From: a virus
Strand: one strand, 5' to 3'
Length of the DNA: 50,887 bases
Virus record (IMG/VR): IMGVR_UViG_3300035698_002459
Coordinates: 1-50,887 of that record
Below are positions 28,499 through 41,044 of this stretch, in pieces. The translations under genes and the position numbers were made by a program. The notes beneath the pieces are model-generated. The model worked only from the letters and a program-made list of their open reading frames with translations, was not told the DNA's origin and made no database searches. Numbering within the stretch: position 1 is the stretch's first letter; each line of letters begins with the position of its first letter.

Positions 28499-31435
28499 AT
28501 GTCCGAAAAGAAATTTAAGTTTGTGTCCCCCGGAGTTCAAATCAACGAGATTGATAACTCTCAGTATGATGCGACACCAGAAGATACAGGTTACATGATT
28601 GTCGGGAGAGCGCGAAGAGGACCAGCCATGCGCCCCGTAACGGTAAGATCCTATTCGGAGTTCATTGAGATTTTTGGAGATCCGCTCCCCGATTCCTCAA
28701 CGAACACAGATGTGTGGAGAGAAGGCATCCAACTTGGACCCACATATGGCGTTTATGCTGCTCAAGCAGCACTAAAGAACAAAAGCAGTCTTACATACGT
28801 GAGATTACTTGGAACCAAACATGCAGATTACACTGTTGGCTCGGGAGAGGCAGGCTGGAAGGCTGGAACTACTTCACAAACAGATTGGAGCGGTGGAGCT
28901 TATGGTCTCTTTATGTGGCCATCTGGATCAGGTGGACCAGTTGCCATGACAGGAACGCTTGCGGCAGTCTGGTACTGCACAACTGGCTCAATAAACCTAT
29001 CAGGTACTATGCGCGGGAATACCGATTTCCCGATGACCGGTACAGCGGTAATGATTGAAGCGACCGCAGCCAAACAATTTGTTGTAGTTGTTAAAGATAA
29101 TGTTGATTCCATAACGGAAACGGTGAAGTTTGACTTCACCCCCGGAAGCGACAGGTTCATCAGAAAAGTCTTTAATACGAACCCTTCTTTGACAAATGGA
29201 TCTGTTTTTGCGGCCACTTCTAGCTATTGGCTGGGAGAGACTTACGAAGATTTCATTAATGATAACGATGAAATTGGTGATCAATTTGCCACTAAATCAT
29301 GGGTCGGAGCAGTTTTTGCTCTGAGCGATGGTGTTAACCCTGTTAGTAACCGACAAAGGGAAATGACCAACTCACAGACCGGTTGGTTCTTCCGTCAGGA
29401 TATGGCAGTGGATAACACAACTTACGATCACAACGAAATGACCAAACTATTTAAGTTTCACTCGTTGAACTCTGGGGAATGGAACCAGTCGCATATCAAA
29501 ATTTCCATTGCGAATATCAAACAATCCAAGAACGATCAGTATAATCAATTTGGGACGTTCGATGTTATTATCAGATCTATAAATGATACAGATGGTAACA
29601 TAATTGTTCTTGAACGATTCTCAAGATGTAATCTAAATCCAAATTCAGGTGACTACGTTGGCAAGAAGGTTGGAGATAAGTACATCGTCTTCAGCGACAC
29701 TACTCGCAGAAACGTTGAATATGGGCAGTTTAATAACAACTCTAAATTCATTAGAATTGAGATGGCAGAAGCTGTTGCAAACGAAGGAATCATAAAAGAG
29801 TCTTTACCGTTCGGCGTTTATGGGCCAATTCAATTCAAGGACTTTACCTTGATGAGTGGATCTGCCAACTACTTCCCAACGGGACCGGCAAGTCTTGACG
29901 ACACAACTGTTGGTGGACACAGGCCGTTCATTATGGGCGGAACAGGCTCAATCGACAACTGGAGAGAAAGTGACACTTACGGTCCTCAAGCTCTGAGCAT
30001 GGGCTGGGCTGACCCAGGAACGACAGCGACAGCTACCGATCAGATAACTGCCTCTATCATCTACCCGTCTGTCAGATTACGACAAACGACATTATCCGGC
30101 ACTCTATCCGAGCCAAAGGCTGCATTCTTCGGCGTTTATACCGACGATTCATTTAACACCTTTGCCCCCGGAGTCAAAGATTTGACAAGAATTATGCCTG
30201 CTGGCGTCTCGGTGTCTTCTGTAGAAGCAAACACTGATTATCAATGGGTCTTTACCCTTGATGACATTCGCTGGCACGTCCAGAGTGGAACTCCCGGTAC
30301 GGATGCTATATATTCAACTTATGATGCTGAATGGGTTTCCGGCACACACGTAGACGGTTACTCAATCACTACAACTGGATCAGCAAGTTGGACAACTGTT
30401 CTTGATGCCGGTTTTAATTCCTTCACTACTGTCCTCTATGGGGGATTCGATGGGATTGATATAACAGAAGTTGAGCCATTTAATAATGAAGACTTGGCCA
30501 ACAGTTCAGAGAAAACGAGTTATGCTTTCAATACAATTAAAAGAGCAATCGATGTTGTTGCAGACCCGGAAGAAGTAGTCTTCAGTGATTTCTTTATGCC
30601 GGGTATCACGAACACAACTTTAACTGCTCACGCACTTTCTATGTGCGAAGAGAGAGCAGACGCGCTTTGTATTATTGATATTGAAAATGATTATGTTCCA
30701 AGAACTGAAACCGCAAGTTCAGAAGCTACTCGGATTGGTACTTCAACTGCGGCTGTCAATTCAATGAACGAAAGAGCAATCAACAGTTCATATGGTGCTG
30801 CTTACTACCCATGGTGCCAGATGCGAGATAACGTGTCTAACAACCTTGTATGGGTTCCACCTTCGGTTGTTGCTGCTGGTGTATTCGCCAAGACAGACCG
30901 CGATGGTGGTCCATGGTGGGCACCCGCTGGTATGAAGAGAGGCGGCCTTTCAAGTGGCGGCGCAGGAGTGCCAATTGTAAACGTCCGACAAAGACTAGCA
31001 AAGCAGGATAGAGATGATCTTTATGAAGTCGGTATTAATCCCATCGCTTCATTCCCACAACAAGGAATTGTCGTTTGGGGACAAAAGACTCTGCAAACTA
31101 CCACTTCTGCTCTAGATAGAATCAACGTTAGAAGAATGGTTCTCTTTATCAAAAGAAAGCTTTCCAGAATAGCTCTGCAAACAGCATTCGAATTCAATGA
31201 TGTTGTTACGTGGGAAAGGTTCAAGGGAAAGGCCGATGTCTTCCTGAGTCAAATCTTCTCGGATAGAGGAATCTCGGAGTACAAGCTAGTCTTGGATGAA
31301 ACAACTACAACTCCAGACTCAATAGATAGAAATATTTTGTACGCCAAACTATTTATTAAGCCAACTAAGGTTGCAGAATTCATTGCTGTAGATCTTGCCA
31401 TAACAAACCAAGGCGCTTCGTTCGCAGATTTTTAA
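28499..31435 (+). CDS. 18: Tail sheath protein (gp18-like), enlarged
   Basis: The 978-residue protein has the conserved sheath N-terminus (VSPGVQINEID, then GYMIVGRARRGPAM). Its C-terminal fold contains ERADALCIIDIEND, SSYGAAYYPWCQMRDN, WVPPSVVAAGVFAKTDR and GIVVWGQKTL. The end (RINVRRMVLFIKRKLSRIALQTAFEFND through DLAITNQG) matches T4-type sheaths, where these termini link neighbouring subunits. T4 gp18 is 659 aa, so about 300 residues are inserted in the middle, probably surface domains. It forms the contractile outer tail with the tube gene next door. Confidence 0.93.
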   Translation: MSEKKFKFVSPGVQINEIDNSQYDATPEDTGYMIVGRARRGPAMRPVTVRSYSEFIEIFGDPLPDSSTNTDVWREGIQLGPTYGVYAAQAALKNKSSLTYVRLLGTKHADYTVGSGEAGWKAGTTSQTDWSGGAYGLFMWPSGSGGPVAMTGTLAAVWYCTTGSINLSGTMRGNTDFPMTGTAVMIEATAAKQFVVVVKDNVDSITETVKFDFTPGSDRFIRKVFNTNPSLTNGSVFAATSSYWLGETYEDFINDNDEIGDQFATKSWVGAVFALSDGVNPVSNRQREMTNSQTGWFFRQDMAVDNTTYDHNEMTKLFKFHSLNSGEWNQSHIKISIANIKQSKNDQYNQFGTFDVIIRSINDTDGNIIVLERFSRCNLNPNSGDYVGKKVGDKYIVFSDTTRRNVEYGQFNNNSKFIRIEMAEAVANEGIIKESLPFGVYGPIQFKDFTLMSGSANYFPTGPASLDDTTVGGHRPFIMGGTGSIDNWRESDTYGPQALSMGWADPGTTATATDQITASIIYPSVRLRQTTLSGTLSEPKAAFFGVYTDDSFNTFAPGVKDLTRIMPAGVSVSSVEANTDYQWVFTLDDIRWHVQSGTPGTDAIYSTYDAEWVSGTHVDGYSITTTGSASWTTVLDAGFNSFTTVLYGGFDGIDITEVEPFNNEDLANSSEKTSYAFNTIKRAIDVVADPEEVVFSDFFMPGITNTTLTAHALSMCEERADALCIIDIENDYVPRTETASSEATRIGTSTAAVNSMNERAINSSYGAAYYPWCQMRDNVSNNLVWVPPSVVAAGVFAKTDRDGGPWWAPAGMKRGGLSSGGAGVPIVNVRQRLAKQDRDDLYEVGINPIASFPQQGIVVWGQKTLQTTTSALDRINVRRMVLFIKRKLSRIALQTAFEFNDVVTWERFKGKADVFLSQIFSDRGISEYKLVLDETTTTPDSIDRNILYAKLFIKPTKVAEFIAVDLAITNQGASFADF

Positions 31436-32013: not shown

Positions 32014-32850
32014 ATGAATAGCAAAATGAGTAGAGGGGGAAGCGGTCCAGAAGTGGATGCTCCCCCTGTTTTTTCTTTTAATTTCCCATTAGGGACAGAT
32101 TACATAGACGTTCCATCGGCAGGAAAATTTTACCCAGAAGACAGTCCCTTGTTTGGAATCTCTTCGATAGAGTTAAAGCATATGACTGGGAAGGATGAGG
32201 AAATCCTCACGAACCGGAACTACATCAAGAAGGGAGTCGTGATTGACAAGTTGCTGGCCAACTTGATTGTGGACCCGATGATTGTAAGAAACATGCAAGA
32301 CATGATCGCTGGCGACAAGGCCGCTTTGTTCGTTGCTGCAAGGATATCAGGCATCTCAGATGAGTATCTCACAGAGGTAGTATGTCCAGAATGTTCTACA
32401 AAGCAAACATATGCTTTCGACCTGAACGATTCCACTCTGTACCCTGGCATAAGCGAAGATGACCCAGATGTTACCCAAGTTGAAAACAACATCTTCAGAA
32501 TTAAACTCCCAGTATCAAAAGTGGAAGTAGACGTTAGACTTACAACATCAAGAGATTCAAACAGAATCATAAAGATTGCACAAGGCAACAAGACATCCAT
32601 CGGTAACAAGGAAATCCTTGGCCGAAATTTGGTTTCCGTCACTACACCAGATGGTGTTACATTTACAGATTCCAAATCAAAAGAAGTCTTCTTTCAGAGC
32701 ATTCCAGCTAAAGAACTTTTATTCCTGAAGCAAAAGGTCAAAGACATCAACCCCGACTTCTCAATCAAACAAGAATTTGATTGTCAACATTGCGTTTACG
32801 TTGATGAGATGGAGCCTCCTTTCTCTGTAAATTTTATCTATCCAAGGTAG
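32014..32850 (+). CDS. 26: Baseplate hub / tail assembly protein (gp26-like)
   Basis: The 278-residue protein has the T4 gp26-family opening DYIDVPSAGKFYPEDSPL and ELKHMTGKDEEILTNRNYI. It continues VIDKLLANLIVD, and has two Cys pairs, CPEC and CQHC, that can bind zinc. T4 gp26 is 208 aa. Its place, between tube and tape measure, is that of the tail assembly chaperone in most tailed phages. A slippery heptamer near its end (32829) allows extension into the next frame. The last residues of the unshifted form are NFIYPR. Confidence 0.75.
   Translation: MNSKMSRGGSGPEVDAPPVFSFNFPLGTDYIDVPSAGKFYPEDSPLFGISSIELKHMTGKDEEILTNRNYIKKGVVIDKLLANLIVDPMIVRNMQDMIAGDKAALFVAARISGISDEYLTEVVCPECSTKQTYAFDLNDSTLYPGISEDDPDVTQVENNIFRIKLPVSKVEVDVRLTTSRDSNRIIKIAQGNKTSIGNKEILGRNLVSVTTPDGVTFTDSKSKEVFFQSIPAKELLFLKQKVKDINPDFSIKQEFDCQHCVYVDEMEPPFSVNFIYPR
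32829..32835 (+). promoter_or_regulatory. Candidate -1 ribosomal frameshift site A AAT TTT
   Basis: In the gp26-like frame the codons are GTA AAT TTT ATC, so the heptamer A AAT TTT has the canonical X XXY YYZ form. A -1 slip places the ribosome in a frame open from 32781 to 33077. A GGAG lies 14 bases upstream (32811-32814), and CCATCA (32862-32867) can pair with TGATGG (32894-32899) downstream. Confidence 0.6.
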
Positions 32851-33077
32851 TTTGGGAAATTCCATCAATTTATACAAAGGAGTTGTATTTTGCTGATGGC
32901 GATTTGGAAACTATTGCAAGAAACTTGCATACCGAGCTTCACCAACTAAGCTTCCATGGGGGTTGGTCAATAATTGAGGCATATAATTTGCCCATCGGTT
33001 TACGGAAGCACTACCTTAACATGTTGAAGGAATCTATTAAAGAGCAAAACAAAGATAAAAGCGTTCGGCAACTTTAA
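32835..33077 (+). CDS. Tail assembly ORF reached by -1 frameshift from gp26-like gene
   Basis: This frame has no ATG or GTG. A TTG at 32883 directly abuts the AAGGAG (32877-32882), so its spacing is too short for normal initiation. Read from the slip site it gives about 80 residues, starting YLSKVVWEIPSIYTKELYF and ending with the conserved-looking GGWSIIEAYNLPIGLRKHYL. The last part resembles small T4-type tail proteins with a W-x-x-x-Y-x-L-P-x-x-L-R pattern. The fusion product would be about 354 residues. If made separately the protein is 64 residues. Confidence 0.6.
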   Translation, partial: YLSKVVWEIPSIYTKELYFADGDLETIARNLHTELHQLSFHGGWSIIEAYNLPIGLRKHYLNMLKESIKEQNKDKSVRQL

Positions 33078-33122: not shown

Positions 33123-35384
33123 ATGAAGAACGCAGATCTAGAAAAACTAAAGAAACTTTTCGGAGATTCGGCAAACGTTATTGACGAATTTACCGAGGCT
33201 CTCAACAGGGCTCACTACGCTAGAGAAGATTTGCGAAAGGCAATGATGGAGCAGGTTCTTCTTGAGGAAAAACTTGAGGAAGCTCGGATGAGAGAAGTCA
33301 AAGGTGTTGGAGATTCTACAGCAAAAAAAGAAGAAGAAATAAAAGCGATTCAAAAGCTTTTAGATGCAAAGAAAAGAGAGCGTGCTGGCCTAGCGCAAGA
33401 TAAAAAACACTTGGACTTATATCTAAAAAGCTTAGATTCTGTCTCGTCTGCCATAGAGAAGATGACTGGGCTTACCAACAAGTCAACCACGGTATTCGAT
33501 GATTTCTTTGATGTTCTCGGAAGAGGACCGGATAAGGAAGGCAATGGTGCTCTTAAGATTCTAGCTGCTGCCACCAAGAGGGTCACGAAAGAATCGTTTA
33601 CCTTAACGAAAGTAATGGGTGGGCTCCTAAGAGTGATGGTTAGCTCAACAGTTAAATGGCTAAAGGTTGCTGATGATCAAATAAGTTCATTTGAAAAGAC
33701 AACTGGATTAGTAGAAGAATACAATTCCATTATGTTAGATGCTTATGCTACCAATCTAAGATTCGGAAACTCCATCGCAGACATTGTTTCAACTACAATA
33801 GCCTTAACAGATACCTTCCATGGTTTTTCTACTATGGTCGGTACTGCTAAAAGAGATCTTATAGAGTTTACAGCTTTACAAATTAGGCTAGGGGTTTCAG
33901 CACAAACAACTGCTCAATCGCTATCGTTCTTCGTTGATGCTTTGGGATATTCCCACGAAGCTGCAATGTCCAACGTGCGCTCTCTTGAGGCGATGGCAGC
34001 TTCTCTAAATATAAGCGCTTCAAAAGCGATTACCGATTTTAATTCCTTGCTCCCCGACATGATCCAGCATGGAGAAAATGCGGCAGAAGTGTTTATAGAA
34101 TTGTCTGGTACTGCAAAGGCTTTGGGAATTGATGTTAAAGATTTGTATAACTCGATGACTCAATTCGACACATTTGAAAGTGCAGCGAGATCCGTTGGTA
34201 GACTTAACGCTATTTTGGGAGGACCGTTCTTAAACAGCATGAGTCTCATGAGAGTGGAAGGTGCTGAAAGAACTAAGATGATGATTGAGGGCTTACAAGC
34301 TTCTAACAGAAGCTGGGACGGTCTCCACAAATTTGAGAGGCAAGCAATACAAACAGCTTCAGGTATCAAAGATATGGCAACGGTACAAAAGCTTTTCAAT
34401 GCAGACCTTGGGAACCTTGATTCTCTATTGATCAAGACAAGCATGTCTCAAAAAGAAAATGAAGAAAGGGCGTCGAAGACAGCAAGTATAACAGAGAAGC
34501 TTGATATAGTTTTCCAACAGTTAATGTTCACTCTTGAGCCTATTATCGATGTTGTTGGTTGGGTGTTGGATGCATTTGTAGCAATGACCGGTGCGGTAGA
34601 CGAAATGTTAGAACCTCTTGGTCTCGGAGGCGATGCCTTAAAGGTATTCGGGATGATTGCCTTTGTTGTGATTGCAAAGAGAATGATGTTCTTTAGCAAA
34701 GCCATTGGGGGGATAGGAAAGGCTGCTGTTGCTGCTGGCCCCGCTGCGGGCGGAATCATCTCTGGCGTGCTCGGAGGGGCTGCTGCTGGCCTTGCAGCGG
34801 TCGGTGCAGTCGCTGGCCCAATCGCAGTCGCAGGACTAGCTATAGGCATATTTCTTGCCCTTGTAGGGGCAGGCGGGGCATTAGCTCTGGTCGTGTTAGG
34901 CGGGGCGTTGCATATTTTAGCTGGTGGCATCAATGCTGTTAGTGAGGCTTTTAAATGGTTTAACGAAAATGACTTAGGAGATCAGCAAGCTATCACCTCG
35001 ATGGCTGATACCCTCGGATCTATTCCGGGTGGAGCTTCTAACAATATAGATATGATCTCTGCTTCTATCAAGGGCCTTGGGAAGTCAATGGATGATCTGG
35101 ATGTGTTCAAAATGTTCGCCTTCCGAGAAGTCTTGGACGGGATTTCAAGCCTTTCAGATACACAAGTTCAAGTTGCAACGCAATTCTTGAACCCGCAGGT
35201 TACAGCAGGGATCAATCAAGCTGTCGCTTCCGGTGGCTCATCAGGTGGGAACCTTACTACTACAAGTTCCTCATCCACAAGTGGAGGAATGAGGGAAGTG
35301 ATTCTTCAAGTCGGGGAAAAAGAATTGGGAAGAGTAGTTATAGACATATTAGAGAAGAGGTATAACTTACAACTACATGGCTAA
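33123..35384 (+). CDS. Tape measure protein / tail length determinator
   Basis: The 753-residue protein has a long helical, charged N-terminal half with coiled coil (about 40-130). Its central segments are Ala/Ser-rich, as in other tape measures. A very hydrophobic Gly/Ala block lies at about 535-610, a feature needed for DNA passage into the cell. The end has a Ser/Thr/Gly-rich linker and a small C-terminal unit REVILQVGEKELGRVV. It follows the tail assembly ORFs, the standard order. T4 uses gp29 (590 aa) for this; sequence similarity to gp29 itself is not evident to me. Confidence 0.75.
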   Translation: MKNADLEKLKKLFGDSANVIDEFTEALNRAHYAREDLRKAMMEQVLLEEKLEEARMREVKGVGDSTAKKEEEIKAIQKLLDAKKRERAGLAQDKKHLDLYLKSLDSVSSAIEKMTGLTNKSTTVFDDFFDVLGRGPDKEGNGALKILAAATKRVTKESFTLTKVMGGLLRVMVSSTVKWLKVADDQISSFEKTTGLVEEYNSIMLDAYATNLRFGNSIADIVSTTIALTDTFHGFSTMVGTAKRDLIEFTALQIRLGVSAQTTAQSLSFFVDALGYSHEAAMSNVRSLEAMAASLNISASKAITDFNSLLPDMIQHGENAAEVFIELSGTAKALGIDVKDLYNSMTQFDTFESAARSVGRLNAILGGPFLNSMSLMRVEGAERTKMMIEGLQASNRSWDGLHKFERQAIQTASGIKDMATVQKLFNADLGNLDSLLIKTSMSQKENEERASKTASITEKLDIVFQQLMFTLEPIIDVVGWVLDAFVAMTGAVDEMLEPLGLGGDALKVFGMIAFVVIAKRMMFFSKAIGGIGKAAVAAGPAAGGIISGVLGGAAAGLAAVGAVAGPIAVAGLAIGIFLALVGAGGALALVVLGGALHILAGGINAVSEAFKWFNENDLGDQQAITSMADTLGSIPGGASNNIDMISASIKGLGKSMDDLDVFKMFAFREVLDGISSLSDTQVQVATQFLNPQVTAGINQAVASGGSSGGNLTTTSSSSTSGGMREVILQVGEKELGRVVIDILEKRYNLQLHG

Positions 35385-36186
35385 AAAGAAAACCAGACAG
35401 ATATTTGATAACGAAATTCATCAAATGAATTATGAGAGAAGGTACGAATCTGCCAACGCAGTTCTACGTTTCCACTATGTGGCAACAAGCGCGTCTATAA
35501 GATTTCATGCATATCTCACGGCAATGTCTGAGACGTTTAATTCTAGATGGCAAAAAACACCAGTCTACGGACGTATGGACAACATCGCAAATTATGAAGG
35601 GACAGACAGAACTTTACAACTTGCGTGGGACATTCCGTCTTATAGTATAGAACAAGCCAGAGTACATTTATCATATGTTTCAGAGTTGATTACATACACA
35701 TACCCAGTTATGGACAACTCTCAAGGAATAGGTAATATTAACACACCTCCCATTTTGAGATTGGAATTCGGAAACTTAATCAAAGATGTATCTTCAAACC
35801 AGGGGTTGCTTGGGTTTATCGATGGGGGTCTTTCGATCACGCCAGATTTAGATGCTGGTATGTTCATGGAGAGAGGAAAGTTTTACCCAAAAAACTGGAA
35901 GCTTTCACTAAGCTATTCAGTTCTTCACACGCACAAGCTCGGATTCCACAACAAGCCAAAAATGCCTGTAAACTTTCCATATGAAGTGCCTAATGATTAT
36001 CACGATCAAAAGGCGACAGCAGAAGAGTTTTACAAGCTTCAAAAAGAAGCTCCGCTTGAAAAGATTATTGGCGAGGCTTCGGCAAATGCGGCACAAGCCC
36101 TGGTCCCTGGCTTGATCGGCGGTGCTATACCGCTTATCGATGCAAAGATGAGAGAAGCCAAACAACAAGGATTATTAGACGAATGA
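35377..36186 (+). CDS. Baseplate tail-tube cap/initiator (gp48/gp54-like)
   Basis: The 269-residue protein carries WQKTPVYGRMDNIANYEGT and LQLAWDIPSYSIEQA, then a conserved PPILRLEFGNLIKD and LGFIDGGLSITPDLDAG, ending in FYPKNWKLSLSYSVLH. This series is known from T4-type proteins that seed tube growth on the baseplate (gp48/gp54). It overlaps the tape-measure gene by 8 bases and the next gene by 4. Which of gp48 or gp54 it corresponds to cannot be said. Confidence 0.6.
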   Translation: MAKKKTRQIFDNEIHQMNYERRYESANAVLRFHYVATSASIRFHAYLTAMSETFNSRWQKTPVYGRMDNIANYEGTDRTLQLAWDIPSYSIEQARVHLSYVSELITYTYPVMDNSQGIGNINTPPILRLEFGNLIKDVSSNQGLLGFIDGGLSITPDLDAGMFMERGKFYPKNWKLSLSYSVLHTHKLGFHNKPKMPVNFPYEVPNDYHDQKATAEEFYKLQKEAPLEKIIGEASANAAQALVPGLIGGAIPLIDAKMREAKQQGLLDE

Positions 36187-36524
36187 GATATGGAAAGAAG
36201 AAAAGATTGTTCCTAACTCATGAATTTTATGAGAAGACTCTAGATGATAGAGGAATTAAATCGCTTGAATACTTTGGGTTGAGTGATGGCTCTCTAAAAT
36301 ATCCTAGCGCAACTCAATTAAAAGAATTAGAAATAACTTCTTATATTTGGGAAAAAGGAGATAACTATATGAATCTTGCTTTTGAATTTTATAATAAAAA
36401 TTCTGAGTATTGGTGGATAATTGCATTCTTTAACCAAAAGCCGTTAGATCAGATGGTTAAAGTCGGGAGTCTCATTTACATCCCAACTCCACTAAACAAG
36501 ATTCTTAGCATTTACGGAATATGA
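36183..36524 (+). CDS. 53: Baseplate wedge protein (gp53-like, LysM-type)
   Basis: The 113-residue protein has YIWEKGDNYMNLAFEFYNKN, EYWWIIAFFNQKPLDQ and VGSLIYIPTP. This is the LysM-type pattern of T4 gp53 and other small wedge proteins, which bridge the hub and wedges. T4 gp53 is 196 aa, so this is a shortened form. Its ATG overlaps the preceding stop (ATGA), and the following gene starts at 36521 with a 4-base overlap. Confidence 0.65.
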   Translation: MRYGKKKRLFLTHEFYEKTLDDRGIKSLEYFGLSDGSLKYPSATQLKELEITSYIWEKGDNYMNLAFEFYNKNSEYWWIIAFFNQKPLDQMVKVGSLIYIPTPLNKILSIYGI

Positions 36525-38959
36525 GCAAAGAATCAAAATTCGAACAAGCTATGTTGTTAGATCCTGACAACATAGCCATGATACTTCGTACAGTAAGAGA
36601 GAAAGATAAGGGGTTTTGGGAAAAATACCAAAATCTTTTAATCAGAATCGGGGACGTTGCGCCCGAGTTCTTGATAAGCCTTTTAACCGTGATCCAAAAG
36701 GATCAGGTGGAGCCGTTTTTGGGAATTACCCCTGCCCAAATGTCATCACTGGTTCCCGTTATAAAGCTATGGCATGTGAATGCAGAAGGGGAAGATATTC
36801 AAATTCACATCAAAGAACATTACGAAGAAGAAGAAATAAGAACCAGAAAGTATTTTGCAGAAACTGCCAGGGAAAACGAGAATAACAAAGAATTTGAAAA
36901 ATTTCTAAAAGAGACCTCATCTTCTGGAGTTGGAATCAAATCTCTCAACCTTGTTAACAGAAACGAGAAGCCTGGCGATGTGAACATACAATGTGACATA
37001 GAACTTTACTTTGATGACATCATTTCTCTCCTACAAGGACCACATAAGGAAATGTTCCGAGTGCCCCGGTCAGTTAACGATTCAAACCCTATAGATTTCA
37101 GGCTGAAACTGCTTATTGGATGGGCTGTGCCAAATATTCAAGACGAATATTTTCCAGAAGAACTAAGAAAGTCTATAGAGAAGACTCAACAAGTCTTCAT
37201 GCTGGCTCTGGTTCAGCACGCCCTGACCTTTAATACAAATGGGTCAATCACTCTCAAATTAGAGTATCAAGGGGCAATGGAGAACATATTCTACTCGCCC
37301 GAGTCTGATATCATCTCATTGGACAAAATTCTTTATGTCCCAGGCACAACGGCAGAAATATTTACCAAGCTAGAAAATTATGAACAAAAGAAGGGCGTAG
37401 GAAATGGGTTTCTGGCATTCCTTGGTGTCAACACTGCTGCTGACGACACGCTTGAACTCATCACCCCTGCCGAATATACCATGTATAAGAACGGGGAAAA
37501 GGCTATAGTCGCAAAAATTAAAGAGTATGAAAGAGAGGACTCAAACAAGGCAGACGACATAGAGAAGTTGCAAGAAGACTTGGAAGAAATCACTGAGAAA
37601 CTTGCGGAGTTAAGAAAAGACACAAGAAAAGAAAGATATCGGTCTATTATGGACAGGATCCTTGAAAGGAGCAAGCTCTATTACACTAAGGTTGATCAAC
37701 TCACATATACACAAGCACAAATTTTAGGGGCGTCCCAATTGAAGGCCGACTTGAGTGGGAAATCGTTCAAAAATACAGCTTCGGGGTTTATCGGACTCTC
37801 AAACAAAGAAGATGTTACCCAAGAGGGTGTGCCGATGCTAAAAAACGTCTGGAGAGTATCGCCAGAGGACAGAGTTCTGCGGAACGCTAAGGTCGCCAAA
37901 ATCAGAAGGGCTCTTAGCGGGGAGACGGATGTAATAGACTCTGTTGTACTAGCATCTCTACCTATAGGCGTTGGGGAATTTGCCAAAGCCTATGCTAAAG
38001 TGAGATATGGCGACAATGCCAACCCCAAATATGAAACAGAAGCGGTCACAAATGAAGAAAGAATCATTCATTTCTTAATGTTGGGAGACATTATCGAAGT
38101 AGCCGCCAGTTTCTTAGAAACTGACAAAACCAACAATATCGTTCTTGGTCCCATTCGTTTAAGAGGCAAGGATATAATCAACATTGCGGATATACCTGTT
38201 CCACTGAGTGCATTTACCTCTTGGTTTATATCCAAGGTAACATCTCAAGACAAAGAAAAATGGTTCTTCAAAGAATTCATAAAAGACATCATCAATCAGT
38301 TGATTGGACCTTATATGATAGGGTCACATGGCAGCAATGGTAAACGATTACAGTTTGATTTGGCTGTTGAGACGTTTTATACCCCTACGGAAATCGAACA
38401 GGGAACTGAAATCAGAGGCGACAAAATCAAAGGCATTTTGTTAAATTCATTTCATAACAAAGATGTTGAGAAAAATGTTTACACCTATTTCCTCCTGTAT
38501 GCCACTAGCCATTCGACAATAAATCGCAATGGAGACTATTTTGAAGATATAGAAGACGGCATCTATCATTTAAAAGTCGGGACAGACTCAGGTATTCTGA
38601 AAAGTTTGAATTTTAGCAAGGTCGACAACAATAAACTCAGAACTGCTAGAATGACGAACGATCAATTAAACACCGAAGGCGAATTCCTAAGAGAACACTA
38701 TGACGCTAAGGTAACCTTGCTTGGGAATCATTTGTTCCAACCCGGAAAGCTTTTCTTCGTGGATGGGAGCTATTTGGGAGTGCTCGGACGAAAAACGGCT
38801 CATATGATTGGGTTAGGAGGATACTACAGTTGTACTGAAGTGTCACATACGCTAGGGGCGGGCAAGTTTGATACCACAGTCGGAGGGTTTTGGCAAGACA
38901 TGGGAACTGGCAGGGGAACACCACAGTCGCCGTCAATACCAGAGAAGGATAAGAAATAA
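36521..38959 (+). CDS. Large baseplate hub-like protein
   Basis: The 812-residue protein has IDFRLKLLIGWAVP near residue 200, a charged coiled-coil insert (about 325-380), and the C-terminal block GNHLFQPGKLFFVDGS followed by GLGGYYSCTEVSHTLGAGKFDTTV. In contractile tails this C-terminal block is typical of hub proteins related to gp27/gpD. No lysozyme domain is present. Its position among baseplate genes supports the call; the N-terminal half I cannot assign. Confidence 0.5.
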   Translation: MSKESKFEQAMLLDPDNIAMILRTVREKDKGFWEKYQNLLIRIGDVAPEFLISLLTVIQKDQVEPFLGITPAQMSSLVPVIKLWHVNAEGEDIQIHIKEHYEEEEIRTRKYFAETARENENNKEFEKFLKETSSSGVGIKSLNLVNRNEKPGDVNIQCDIELYFDDIISLLQGPHKEMFRVPRSVNDSNPIDFRLKLLIGWAVPNIQDEYFPEELRKSIEKTQQVFMLALVQHALTFNTNGSITLKLEYQGAMENIFYSPESDIISLDKILYVPGTTAEIFTKLENYEQKKGVGNGFLAFLGVNTAADDTLELITPAEYTMYKNGEKAIVAKIKEYEREDSNKADDIEKLQEDLEEITEKLAELRKDTRKERYRSIMDRILERSKLYYTKVDQLTYTQAQILGASQLKADLSGKSFKNTASGFIGLSNKEDVTQEGVPMLKNVWRVSPEDRVLRNAKVAKIRRALSGETDVIDSVVLASLPIGVGEFAKAYAKVRYGDNANPKYETEAVTNEERIIHFLMLGDIIEVAASFLETDKTNNIVLGPIRLRGKDIINIADIPVPLSAFTSWFISKVTSQDKEKWFFKEFIKDIINQLIGPYMIGSHGSNGKRLQFDLAVETFYTPTEIEQGTEIRGDKIKGILLNSFHNKDVEKNVYTYFLLYATSHSTINRNGDYFEDIEDGIYHLKVGTDSGILKSLNFSKVDNNKLRTARMTNDQLNTEGEFLREHYDAKVTLLGNHLFQPGKLFFVDGSYLGVLGRKTAHMIGLGGYYSCTEVSHTLGAGKFDTTVGGFWQDMGTGRGTPQSPSIPEKDKK

Positions 38960-40005
38960 TGTCCATTAAAGAATTATTTGAAAGAGAGAAAGCCTTTCAG
39001 GATGAAATAAATTTTCCAAACCTGTTTGATAAGAAGCTGGCTCCGAACTTTGGAAAGGTTGACCTAGAGGGGATCCCAATGGTTCCTAGAAGTTCTGCTT
39101 TGAAAAAGGTCGGCGACCATATTAACTTGCATTTTGTGATGGATGCATTTGAGGGGTTGATGAATGAGCTAAAGTCAAACAAGGGCATCATACCGGCAAA
39201 TTCTTTGTTCCATTATAAAAACGTAAACATTCTAAGATCTTATGTGAGTCCTACTCCATCATACACACAAAATCTTGCAGAGAATCTGGTTCACTTTTTA
39301 GATTGGATCAAACCCCATAAAAAATCAATTAAAACTTTCAAAGACTACTTCTCTAAATTAAATGTTTTTTTAATCTTCAAAACAAATCGAGATATCACAT
39401 TTGAAAGTTACCTAAAAAATTCTTTAACCATTTTTTCGACAGGATTAAGTCTACAGGTGCTTCCCGATAAGAAGCCAAGAGAAGCGCATTACAATGACCC
39501 TGCCTTCGCATATTTTAACAACGTTTGTTTGAAGCACAACTTCATGTTAAGTAAAGATTCTCCTTGGATACTGGTTTATAACCTCAAAGCTATAGAAGTT
39601 ACAGAAGCTTCGTTCTTGAACATATATGACTTTGAAATAGACATAATGAAGAATACAATTTGGAGTTACTATAAATCATTTGTTGACGAGTACCCATATG
39701 AGATCAGTAGAGATAATCACGGTTGTCTCCAGAGAGAGTTTAGAGAATCGCTTGATAGTATTCCGTTAAGACACACGGAGGTAATAAGTCTCTACTCTGC
39801 TCTTAGAGTGAGGGAAGGCAAAGAAATGATCGACAAGATTCTGCTTGACACGACGAAAATGGAAGTCTATAAGCTCATTGGGTCTGGGGCATGGGGGCAA
39901 AGCTTGTCCAGCTTAACCATGTTGATCAATAGGTTAACGTATGTCTCAAATAGTTCTCTACTCTCCAATAACAGATCAATACCATACCAAGAGTATTATA
40001 GATGA
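38959..40005 (+). CDS. Uncharacterised protein at end of the tail module
   Basis: The 348-residue protein starts at TAATG overlap with the hub-like gene. It is Lys/Phe/Tyr-rich with central KTFKDYFSKLNVFLIFKTN and DPAFAYFNNVCLKHNFMLS, then SPWILVYNLKAIEV. No membrane segment or metal site is visible. Proteins with this WxLVYNL context occur next to tail genes in other large phages as far as I recall. It is probably virion-associated. It overlaps the polymerase gene by 65 bases. Confidence 0.45.
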   Translation: MSIKELFEREKAFQDEINFPNLFDKKLAPNFGKVDLEGIPMVPRSSALKKVGDHINLHFVMDAFEGLMNELKSNKGIIPANSLFHYKNVNILRSYVSPTPSYTQNLAENLVHFLDWIKPHKKSIKTFKDYFSKLNVFLIFKTNRDITFESYLKNSLTIFSTGLSLQVLPDKKPREAHYNDPAFAYFNNVCLKHNFMLSKDSPWILVYNLKAIEVTEASFLNIYDFEIDIMKNTIWSYYKSFVDEYPYEISRDNHGCLQREFRESLDSIPLRHTEVISLYSALRVREGKEMIDKILLDTTKMEVYKLIGSGAWGQSLSSLTMLINRLTYVSNSSLLSNNRSIPYQEYYR

Positions 40006-41044
40006 TGACTATCATAACTACCTTTGGTCATATAGGGATCAAGACATATACAAGATCAACTCTATTGTATACTTAAACTTGATCCACCAAGAGCCAGACT
40101 TTGGCTCTGTAGCAGATCCCAATTTGTACCAAGACTATCTCAGCAAGAAAGCTCGTCTGGAAGTTGAGTTCAAAGTTTACTGCAAGGTGTTCCAGGGAAG
40201 TATTCTTTTCAAGGATTATTTAGATGAAGGACTTCATCAACAATACGTTGATTCATATTTCAGACTCATTGAACCTCTTGTGGCACCTATTCCAGATGAT
40301 TACACTATCAGGTTTAAGTCTTATCTTATATCTAAACAGATAAACAAATATAATCTGAACCTGTCGGAACCAGTGAAGGGACACAAAACGAAAATCTCTG
40401 TCAATCCATTCACAAAGTTGGGGAGGCTGAAGACCTGTAAAAGCTCTTTTCCAATTCTCAATATTAAAAAGTCAGAGCGGTTTAAGATAAGCCCCAACAA
40501 TGATTTCTTCTTAGAAATTGATTACAACGCCATTGACTTGAGATGCCTCTACGGTCTTGCCAATATAGAGCAAGAAGAGGGAGACCTCCATAATTACATT
40601 AAAGAAGAATATTTTCCGTCCATGACTCGCGATGAGTACAAGAAAGAGATCTTTAGAATCATGTTCTCTTCAGATGAAAACAAGGTATTGCCAGTTGACT
40701 TCGAAAAACTTAAACAAGATTTCTTTAAGAATGACCACATCATCACTCCATTCGGGAAAACCATACCATGTGATGATTATCATTTCCTTAGCTATCTACT
40801 TCAGTCTTGCTCTGCTTGTGTATTTTTTGAACAACTTTTTAAATTCTTAGATTATCTTGAAGAACTCGGGTGGGAAGATTCTTTGGCGTTTACGGTGCAT
40901 GATAGTCTGATACTCGACTTGAGGCACAATCAGCTAAAAGAAATCTTAGAAAATTTACATATTCTAGAAGATACCAGATTTGGATTCTTTCGATTGAATA
41001 AGAAGATTGGCGACAATTACGGAAACATGTCAGATTATGAATAA
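39941..41044 (+). CDS. Compact family-A DNA polymerase (palm/fingers only)
   Basis: The 367-residue protein retains the pol-I catalytic core. Motif A is FLEIDYNAIDLR (Asp194). The O helix has exact pol-I spacing: Arg230, Lys234, Phe238 and Phe242 in SMTRDEYKKEIFRIMF. After GDLH (215-217) and PFGKTIP comes motif C FTVHDSLILD (His320, Asp321). Two usual residues are replaced: Glu of DYSQIELR is Asp199, and Glu of HDE is Ser322. No exonuclease or 5' nuclease domain is present, and the N-terminal 150 residues would be a reduced thumb. T4 uses a family-B polymerase, so this may be the main or an auxiliary enzyme. Confidence 0.75.
   Translation: MSQIVLYSPITDQYHTKSIIDDDYHNYLWSYRDQDIYKINSIVYLNLIHQEPDFGSVADPNLYQDYLSKKARLEVEFKVYCKVFQGSILFKDYLDEGLHQQYVDSYFRLIEPLVAPIPDDYTIRFKSYLISKQINKYNLNLSEPVKGHKTKISVNPFTKLGRLKTCKSSFPILNIKKSERFKISPNNDFFLEIDYNAIDLRCLYGLANIEQEEGDLHNYIKEEYFPSMTRDEYKKEIFRIMFSSDENKVLPVDFEKLKQDFFKNDHIITPFGKTIPCDDYHFLSYLLQSCSACVFFEQLFKFLDYLEELGWEDSLAFTVHDSLILDLRHNQLKEILENLHILEDTRFGFFRLNKKIGDNYGNMSDYE

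Follow-up and report, generated by a model that had tools for sequence, protein, structure and literature searches.

A probable −1 frameshift joining gp26-like and gp51-like tail-assembly chaperone domains in a metagenomic T4-like virus, with +1 counterparts among its relatives

The region between the tail tube and tape measure genes of the DNA analyzed here (a metagenomic virus record of 50,887 bases, hereafter the window) most probably encodes tail-assembly chaperones, with −1 slippage yielding a long form besides the short gp26-like product (probability about 0.83, judged from sequence comparison). The pair is supported as the T4-family equivalent of lambda G/GT, consisting of gp26 and a gp51-like frameshift extension. 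A −1 frameshift at this locus had been proposed in an earlier sequence-only reading, and this mechanism is well supported but not new in kind, because −1 shifts in gp26-type genes were already reported in 2022. That reading knew of no description of such frameshifts in gp26-type genes of T4-like phages; as far as the citing papers convey, Vladimirov, Gautam and Davidson (2022) described chaperone genes with polyT −1 signals in T4-like phages (via PMC12846349), and the same study is cited for T4-like phages with two separate genes (PMC10885494). What is possibly new here is the A_AAT_TTT site, a large +1 clade with an upstream signal, and a change of direction between the two.

Organization of the chaperone locus

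The genes in this part of the window are arranged in the order sheath, tube, gp26-like and tape measure, with the following features:

28499-31435: tail sheath, 978 aa
31461-31997, plus strand: tail tube protein, gp19-like (phrog_4542 tail tube, E=6.1e-22; PF06841, E=2.6e-7)
32014-32850, plus strand: gp26-like gene, putative short tail-assembly chaperone (TAC-N), 278 aa (PF12322, E=2.4e-11; phrog_150, E=1e-9)
32808-33077, plus strand: −1 open frame, from 32835 on a predicted 80-aa extension (TAC-C, gp51-like)
32811-32814, plus strand: Shine-Dalgarno-like GGAG, preceding the heptamer by 14 nt (read from the sequence)
32829-32835, plus strand: A AAT TTT, −1 slippery heptamer in the gp26 reading frame (read from the sequence)
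32848-32850, plus strand: gp26 stop TAG, 12 nt 3' of the heptamer
32862-32900, plus strand: possible stem-loop CCATCA/TGATGG, weak and distant (folding against shuffles)
32883-32885, plus strand: TTG directly behind AAAGGAG with zero spacer, the sole rival start near the gp26 stop
32919-33056, plus strand: conserved T-type domain (RNLHTELHQLSFHGGWS..LPIGLRKHYL..), predicted to be helical (HMM alignment)
33123-35384, plus strand: tape measure protein, 753 aa (phrog_167, E=1.1e-5)

The gp26-like ORF scored 44.2 bits against PF12322 (curated cut-off 24.5), which places it in the T4 gp26 family. The T4 gp18 sheath is much shorter than the window sheath, whose unusual length is shared by IMG/VR relatives.

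The location between the tube and tape measure genes, to which the sequence-only reading had pointed, was confirmed, and a −1 frame does overlap the end of the gp26-like ORF and run to 33077. Its opening had been placed at 32781; it actually opens at 32808, because a TGA at 32805-32807 closes it, and the overlap, put at about 70 bases, measures 43 nt. Both the in-frame A AAT TTT within this overlap and the GGAG 14 nt before it were found as described, and the proposed product of about 354 residues agrees with a count of 274 + 80 codons. The second ORF indeed appears to lack a usable start: there is no ATG in the −1 frame until 33021, which is already inside the conserved domain, and the TTGs before it (32883, 32904, 32925, and 32988) are poorly placed. 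Fusion by a −1 shift is likewise supported. The fused partner is a C-terminal chaperone domain of the gp51 type and is neither the tube nor the tape measure protein.

We infer the slippage itself, its efficiency and the chaperone roles of the products as follows. Most ribosomes would read gp26 through to its stop and produce the 278-aa short form, while a minority would slip back one base on A_AAU_UUU, where the Asn and Phe tRNAs could re-pair as AAA UUU. The slipped ribosomes would bypass the gp26 stop and produce a 354-aa long form, whose 80 additional residues end in the helical gp51-type domain. If the two forms work like lambda gpG and gpGT, coating of the tape measure protein would fall to the short form and recruitment of tube subunits to the long one.

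The −1 extension and the identity of the chaperones

An extension profile based on nine relatives, with the window excluded, recovered the window −1 ORF at E=3.2e-17, the next of 1089 six-frame ORFs being at 0.61; therefore, the −1 ORF is regarded as part of a gene and not as a random open frame. In the AF2 model, the extension, taken as 81 aa, forms helices at residues 25-43, 47-51, and 55-79, and a fold search with the extension returned nothing useful. Compared with the relatives, the window extension has about 20 additional residues after the shift site, and the approximately 28 residues from the shift site to the conserved domain have no clear counterpart there; an open stretch of such length has a probability of about 10% by chance. 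The match of the extension to T4 gp51 (phrog_634, E=0.11) covers the C-terminal half only, and the C-terminus of T4 gp51 carries a similar motif, with an hhalign alignment to the extension that is not significant. Matches to the Pfam family DUF6760 (PF20546) were found at 8230-8409 of L009 (E=3e-4) and 4809-5051 of L037 (E=5e-3), both weak and below the cut-off, and the extension and DUF6760 may be related.

The AF2 model of the window gp26 had a pLDDT of 88.8, and its three highest-probability PDB matches were 2ob9_A and 2ob9_B (HK97 tail assembly chaperone) and YqbN (3klu), with probabilities of 0.80, 0.69, and 0.54 and E values of 0.15-0.43, which are not significant alone. YqbN is a prophage tail chaperone. 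Gene position and these predicted fold matches support a role as tail-assembly chaperones by the logic of G/GT (PMC5009743). Both T4 proteins, gp26 and gp51, appear in the literature as chaperones of hub assembly, the latter being required yet absent from the particle (PMC3004832).

The slippery site and its surroundings

The window codons homologous to the shift site of the relatives read GTA AAT TTT ATC TAT CCA AGG TAG, and the heptamer falls on the same Phe codon where the relatives shift. The window genes, with 11,574 codons, contain 33 heptamers of the AAA/TTT type, which corresponds to 0.04 expected per 14-codon overlap. The window GGAG corresponds to a conserved coding motif (MEVP) in the relatives; GAG is kept, and the +1 site and CCG/GCG signal of the relatives are lost. 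With an extension in −1 and a site of AAT TTT ATC, the window falls outside the +1 clade, which is defined by a +1 extension and a TTT_Y or CTT_T site.

As for the stem suggested downstream, CCATCA and TGATGG can pair, but the stem starts 26 nt past the heptamer, a gap much larger than for usual stimulators, and folding is weak: three stretches near the site folded only slightly better than shuffles (z of −1.2, −2.35, and −1.5), and no strong downstream structure at normal spacing was found in the folding of the region.

Searches for a near relative with a −1 site, using gp26, the sheath, tube, and tape measure and two further baseplate-region proteins (36521-38956 and 35377-36183) as queries, returned +1 relatives or nothing, and no relative was found among viral contigs with the window gp26 alone as query. 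Two loci were obtained from bacterial genome contigs, both of which were +1.

Relatives and the +1 clade

Relatives of gp26 occur in five phage records, annotated or uncultured, and in each of these a small ORF in a different frame follows gp26 immediately; most of these small ORFs contain the motif GGWS..E.YNLP..LR, those of L003 and L004 being divergent. Together with IMG/VR searches whose queries were the sheath, the tube, and an alignment of gp26, these records provided 99 distinct complete junctions. In the comparison of relatives, suggested earlier as a check, the extension is out of frame in 99 of 99 junctions (none in frame 0), but its direction is +1 in 97 and −1 only in the window and L003. 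The shift region of the +1 junctions hardly varies; the sites are TTT TTT TGG (74 junctions), TTC TTT TGG (14), TTT CTT TGG (6), and TTT CTA TGG (1), the remaining two +1 sites being TTT CTA TTC in L002 and TTC TTT CGT in L004. At all sites there is either TTT with T or C as the next base or CTT with T as the next base, from which we infer that one-base forward re-pairing of tRNA-Phe or tRNA-Leu could account for every +1 site. A −2 shift in this clade was rejected by reasoning, since no re-pairing would be possible on TTC TTT TGG and TTC TTT CGT. The overlap of the two frames always covers the F-F-W/F-P shift codons; the shortest overlap measures 23 nt among +1 loci and 10 nt among the −1 loci of cultured phages. 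In no case does the +1 frame open downstream of the site: its latest opening is just at the site, with 23 nt left to the end of the gp26 stop codon. Several relatives have no ATG, GTG, or TTG near the junction.

Codon usage around the +1 site is strongly biased. When shared ancestry is ignored, as in all p values for codon bias given here, seven of 112 conserved gp26 columns show bias at p<1e-6, all of them among the last twelve, around the shift site. Where TGG is preceded by a Phe codon, this codon is TTT in 88 of 88 junctions, compared with 75% elsewhere (p=1e-11, ignoring ancestry), and an upstream conserved Glu is encoded by GAG in 88 of 89 relatives, compared with 38% elsewhere in gp26 (p=7e-36, with the same reservation). 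CCG, GCG, and GAC are also favored just upstream of the site. In addition, GGAGGT lies 22 nt before TGG in 78 of 95 junctions and is near-invariant about ten codons upstream of TTT TTT TGG (junctions L007-L133), a spacing unlike that of known Shine-Dalgarno stimulators. The CCT bias at and after the site is partly due to the sequence coding in two frames. Dual coding is an unlikely cause of the upstream bias, because loci in which a stop shortly before this stretch closes the +1 frame have mostly kept GGAGGT, CCG, GCG, and GAC, which suggests that an RNA-level signal is likely. A candidate hairpin, CCGN..NCGG, immediately before the slippery codons is possibly part of this signal; its pairs fit in 271 of 344 cases, compared with 85-127 in slid controls, and covariation lends it weak support from a single pair (Fisher p=0.008).

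Alternative explanations

A long form made by −1 slippage has to be weighed against the production of a separate small protein, with no fusion, by termination and reinitiation at TTG 32883 or 32904 after the gp26 stop. Both starts would retain the domain that begins at 32919, and related loci (Pseudomonas Cygsa01, Vibrio 1.255.O, and L003) show TAATG, an ATG overlapping the gp26 stop, which in the two named phages suggests reinitiation. However, TTG 32883 abuts AAAGGAG without a spacer and TTG 32904 is 21 nt away from it, the other frame of the relatives always opens upstream of the shift site, with several lacking a start codon near the junction, and the heptamer would have to be a coincidence, so that reinitiation in the window is considered improbable.

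The metagenomic origin of the record and the +1 frame in 97 of 99 junctions raise the question of whether an assembly or sequencing indel has disguised a relative that truly uses the +1 frame. This is very improbable, given that gp26 shows an undisturbed C-terminus as far as the homologous F-x-x-P, that the +1 site is gone (TTT_A, not TTT_Y) with a canonical −1 heptamer in its place, and that the window +1 frame stops at 32894-32896, shortly past the gp26 TAG. Slightly less probable still is fusion by transcriptional slippage instead of ribosomal frameshifting: a T7 run is present at the site in most +1 relatives, whereas the window has AAATTTT only, and the run is broken in more than 20 of the 97 +1 relatives (TTC TTT T, TTT CTT T, and TTT CTA T). 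Ribosomal −1 frameshifting on the heptamer is the preferred reading.

The wider gp26/gp51 family and known frameshift systems

A −1 extension with T_TTT_TTY at or near the gp26 stop was found in Pseudomonas PA5oct, Agrobacterium Atu_ph07, and Stenotrophomonas CM1, and T_TTT_TTY with a −1 extension also occurs in Synechococcus S-CAM22, Vibrio VmeM-32, Variovorax V45v66, S-MbCM6, Melnitz-1, ME01, ACP17, and phiAS5. The canonical heptamers of these distant T4-like phages are located at codons homologous to the window shift site. The window shares with S-CAM22, phiAS5, and other T4-like phages with gp26 and a short gp51 the −1 gp51-type extension at the end of gp26, whereas their T_TTT_TTY lies next to the stop and the window combines a longer linker with A_AAT_TTT. 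In Bacillus SP-15 and Listeria LIS04, the extension is in +1. The TAATG of L107, L140, and L003 represents an apparent change from frameshifting to reinitiation, and L003, with T_TTT_TTC upstream of its TAATG, may use either route.

In T4 itself, genes 26 and 51 are separate and divergently transcribed from opposite strands, unlike the single gene with a predicted frameshift in the window, which shares the gp26 family N domain. T4 gp51 consists of a gp26-like domain (PF12322, E=3.9e-52, residues 1-201) and a short gp51 C-terminal domain of the same kind, and for this reason it looks like the long form encoded as its own gene. The S-CAM22 'gp51' comprises the extension only (phrog_634, E=9.5e-33), and cyanophage gp51 has been described as being without the first ~200 residues (PMC3037559), a truncated appearance for which the overlap between gp26 and the extension offers a likely reason. 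Public annotations shorten or omit the gp51-type extension in several cultured T4-like records (L105, L134, L137, L139, L005, and L101): that of S-CAM22 is annotated from an internal ATG, Flavobacterium phage immuto has a 36-aa ORF only, and those of LIS04 and S-MbCM6 are unannotated.

RF2 is a +1 frameshift site. The clade related to the window would likewise shift +1, on TTT_Y or CTT_T, whereas the window itself would shift −1, and the upstream signal of the clade is reminiscent of the forward-pushing 5' elements of T4 gene 60. Other +1 cases include the UUU_CGU site of influenza PA-X and a putative +1 chaperone shift suggested earlier for the haloarchaeal virus HSTV-2 (PMC5009743). The −1 chaperone frameshift of lambda gpG/gpGT has been reviewed (PMC5009743); the window resembles it in the position between tube and tape measure genes, the short ORF with an out-of-frame extension, and an X_XXY_YYZ site near the end of the first ORF, and differs in showing no sequence relation and in having a PF12322-type N domain with zinc-ribbon-like cysteines and A_AAT_TTT as the heptamer. 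Short and long chaperones produced by a −1 shift late in the first ORF are also known in Vandenendeviridae and Andersonviridae, which are other phage families and use another motif, GTTTTT (PMC12846349).

Change of shift direction and its implications

There is an even chance that the chaperone frameshift reversed its direction at the same codon within one T4-like family, the uncultured clade with its upstream signal using +1 and the window −1. Under such a reversal, the large uncultured clade would slip +1 on UUU_U (UUU UUU UGG), aided by GGAGGU and possibly the CCGN..NCGG hairpin, and the window lineage would have lost the upstream signal and adopted a standard −1 heptamer. With its different heptamer, the locus would add a T4-like lineage to the known range of lambda-type chaperone frameshifts. 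As a single gp26/gp51 family includes −1 and +1 extensions, separate genes, and cases of apparent reinitiation, what seems to be conserved is the out-of-frame short/long arrangement and not the direction. What tail assembly requires of the shift could thereby be addressed by exchanging sites, and the +1 clade, with 95 TGG-site junctions and a conserved upstream signal, offers an unusually well-sampled natural set for studying +1 slippage.

Elsewhere in the window, an ORF at 39941-41044, which sits after the baseplate genes and overlaps the preceding ORF by 65 nt, carries motifs that by eye resemble the palm of family A DNA polymerases (EIDYNAIDLRCL and FTVHDSLIL).
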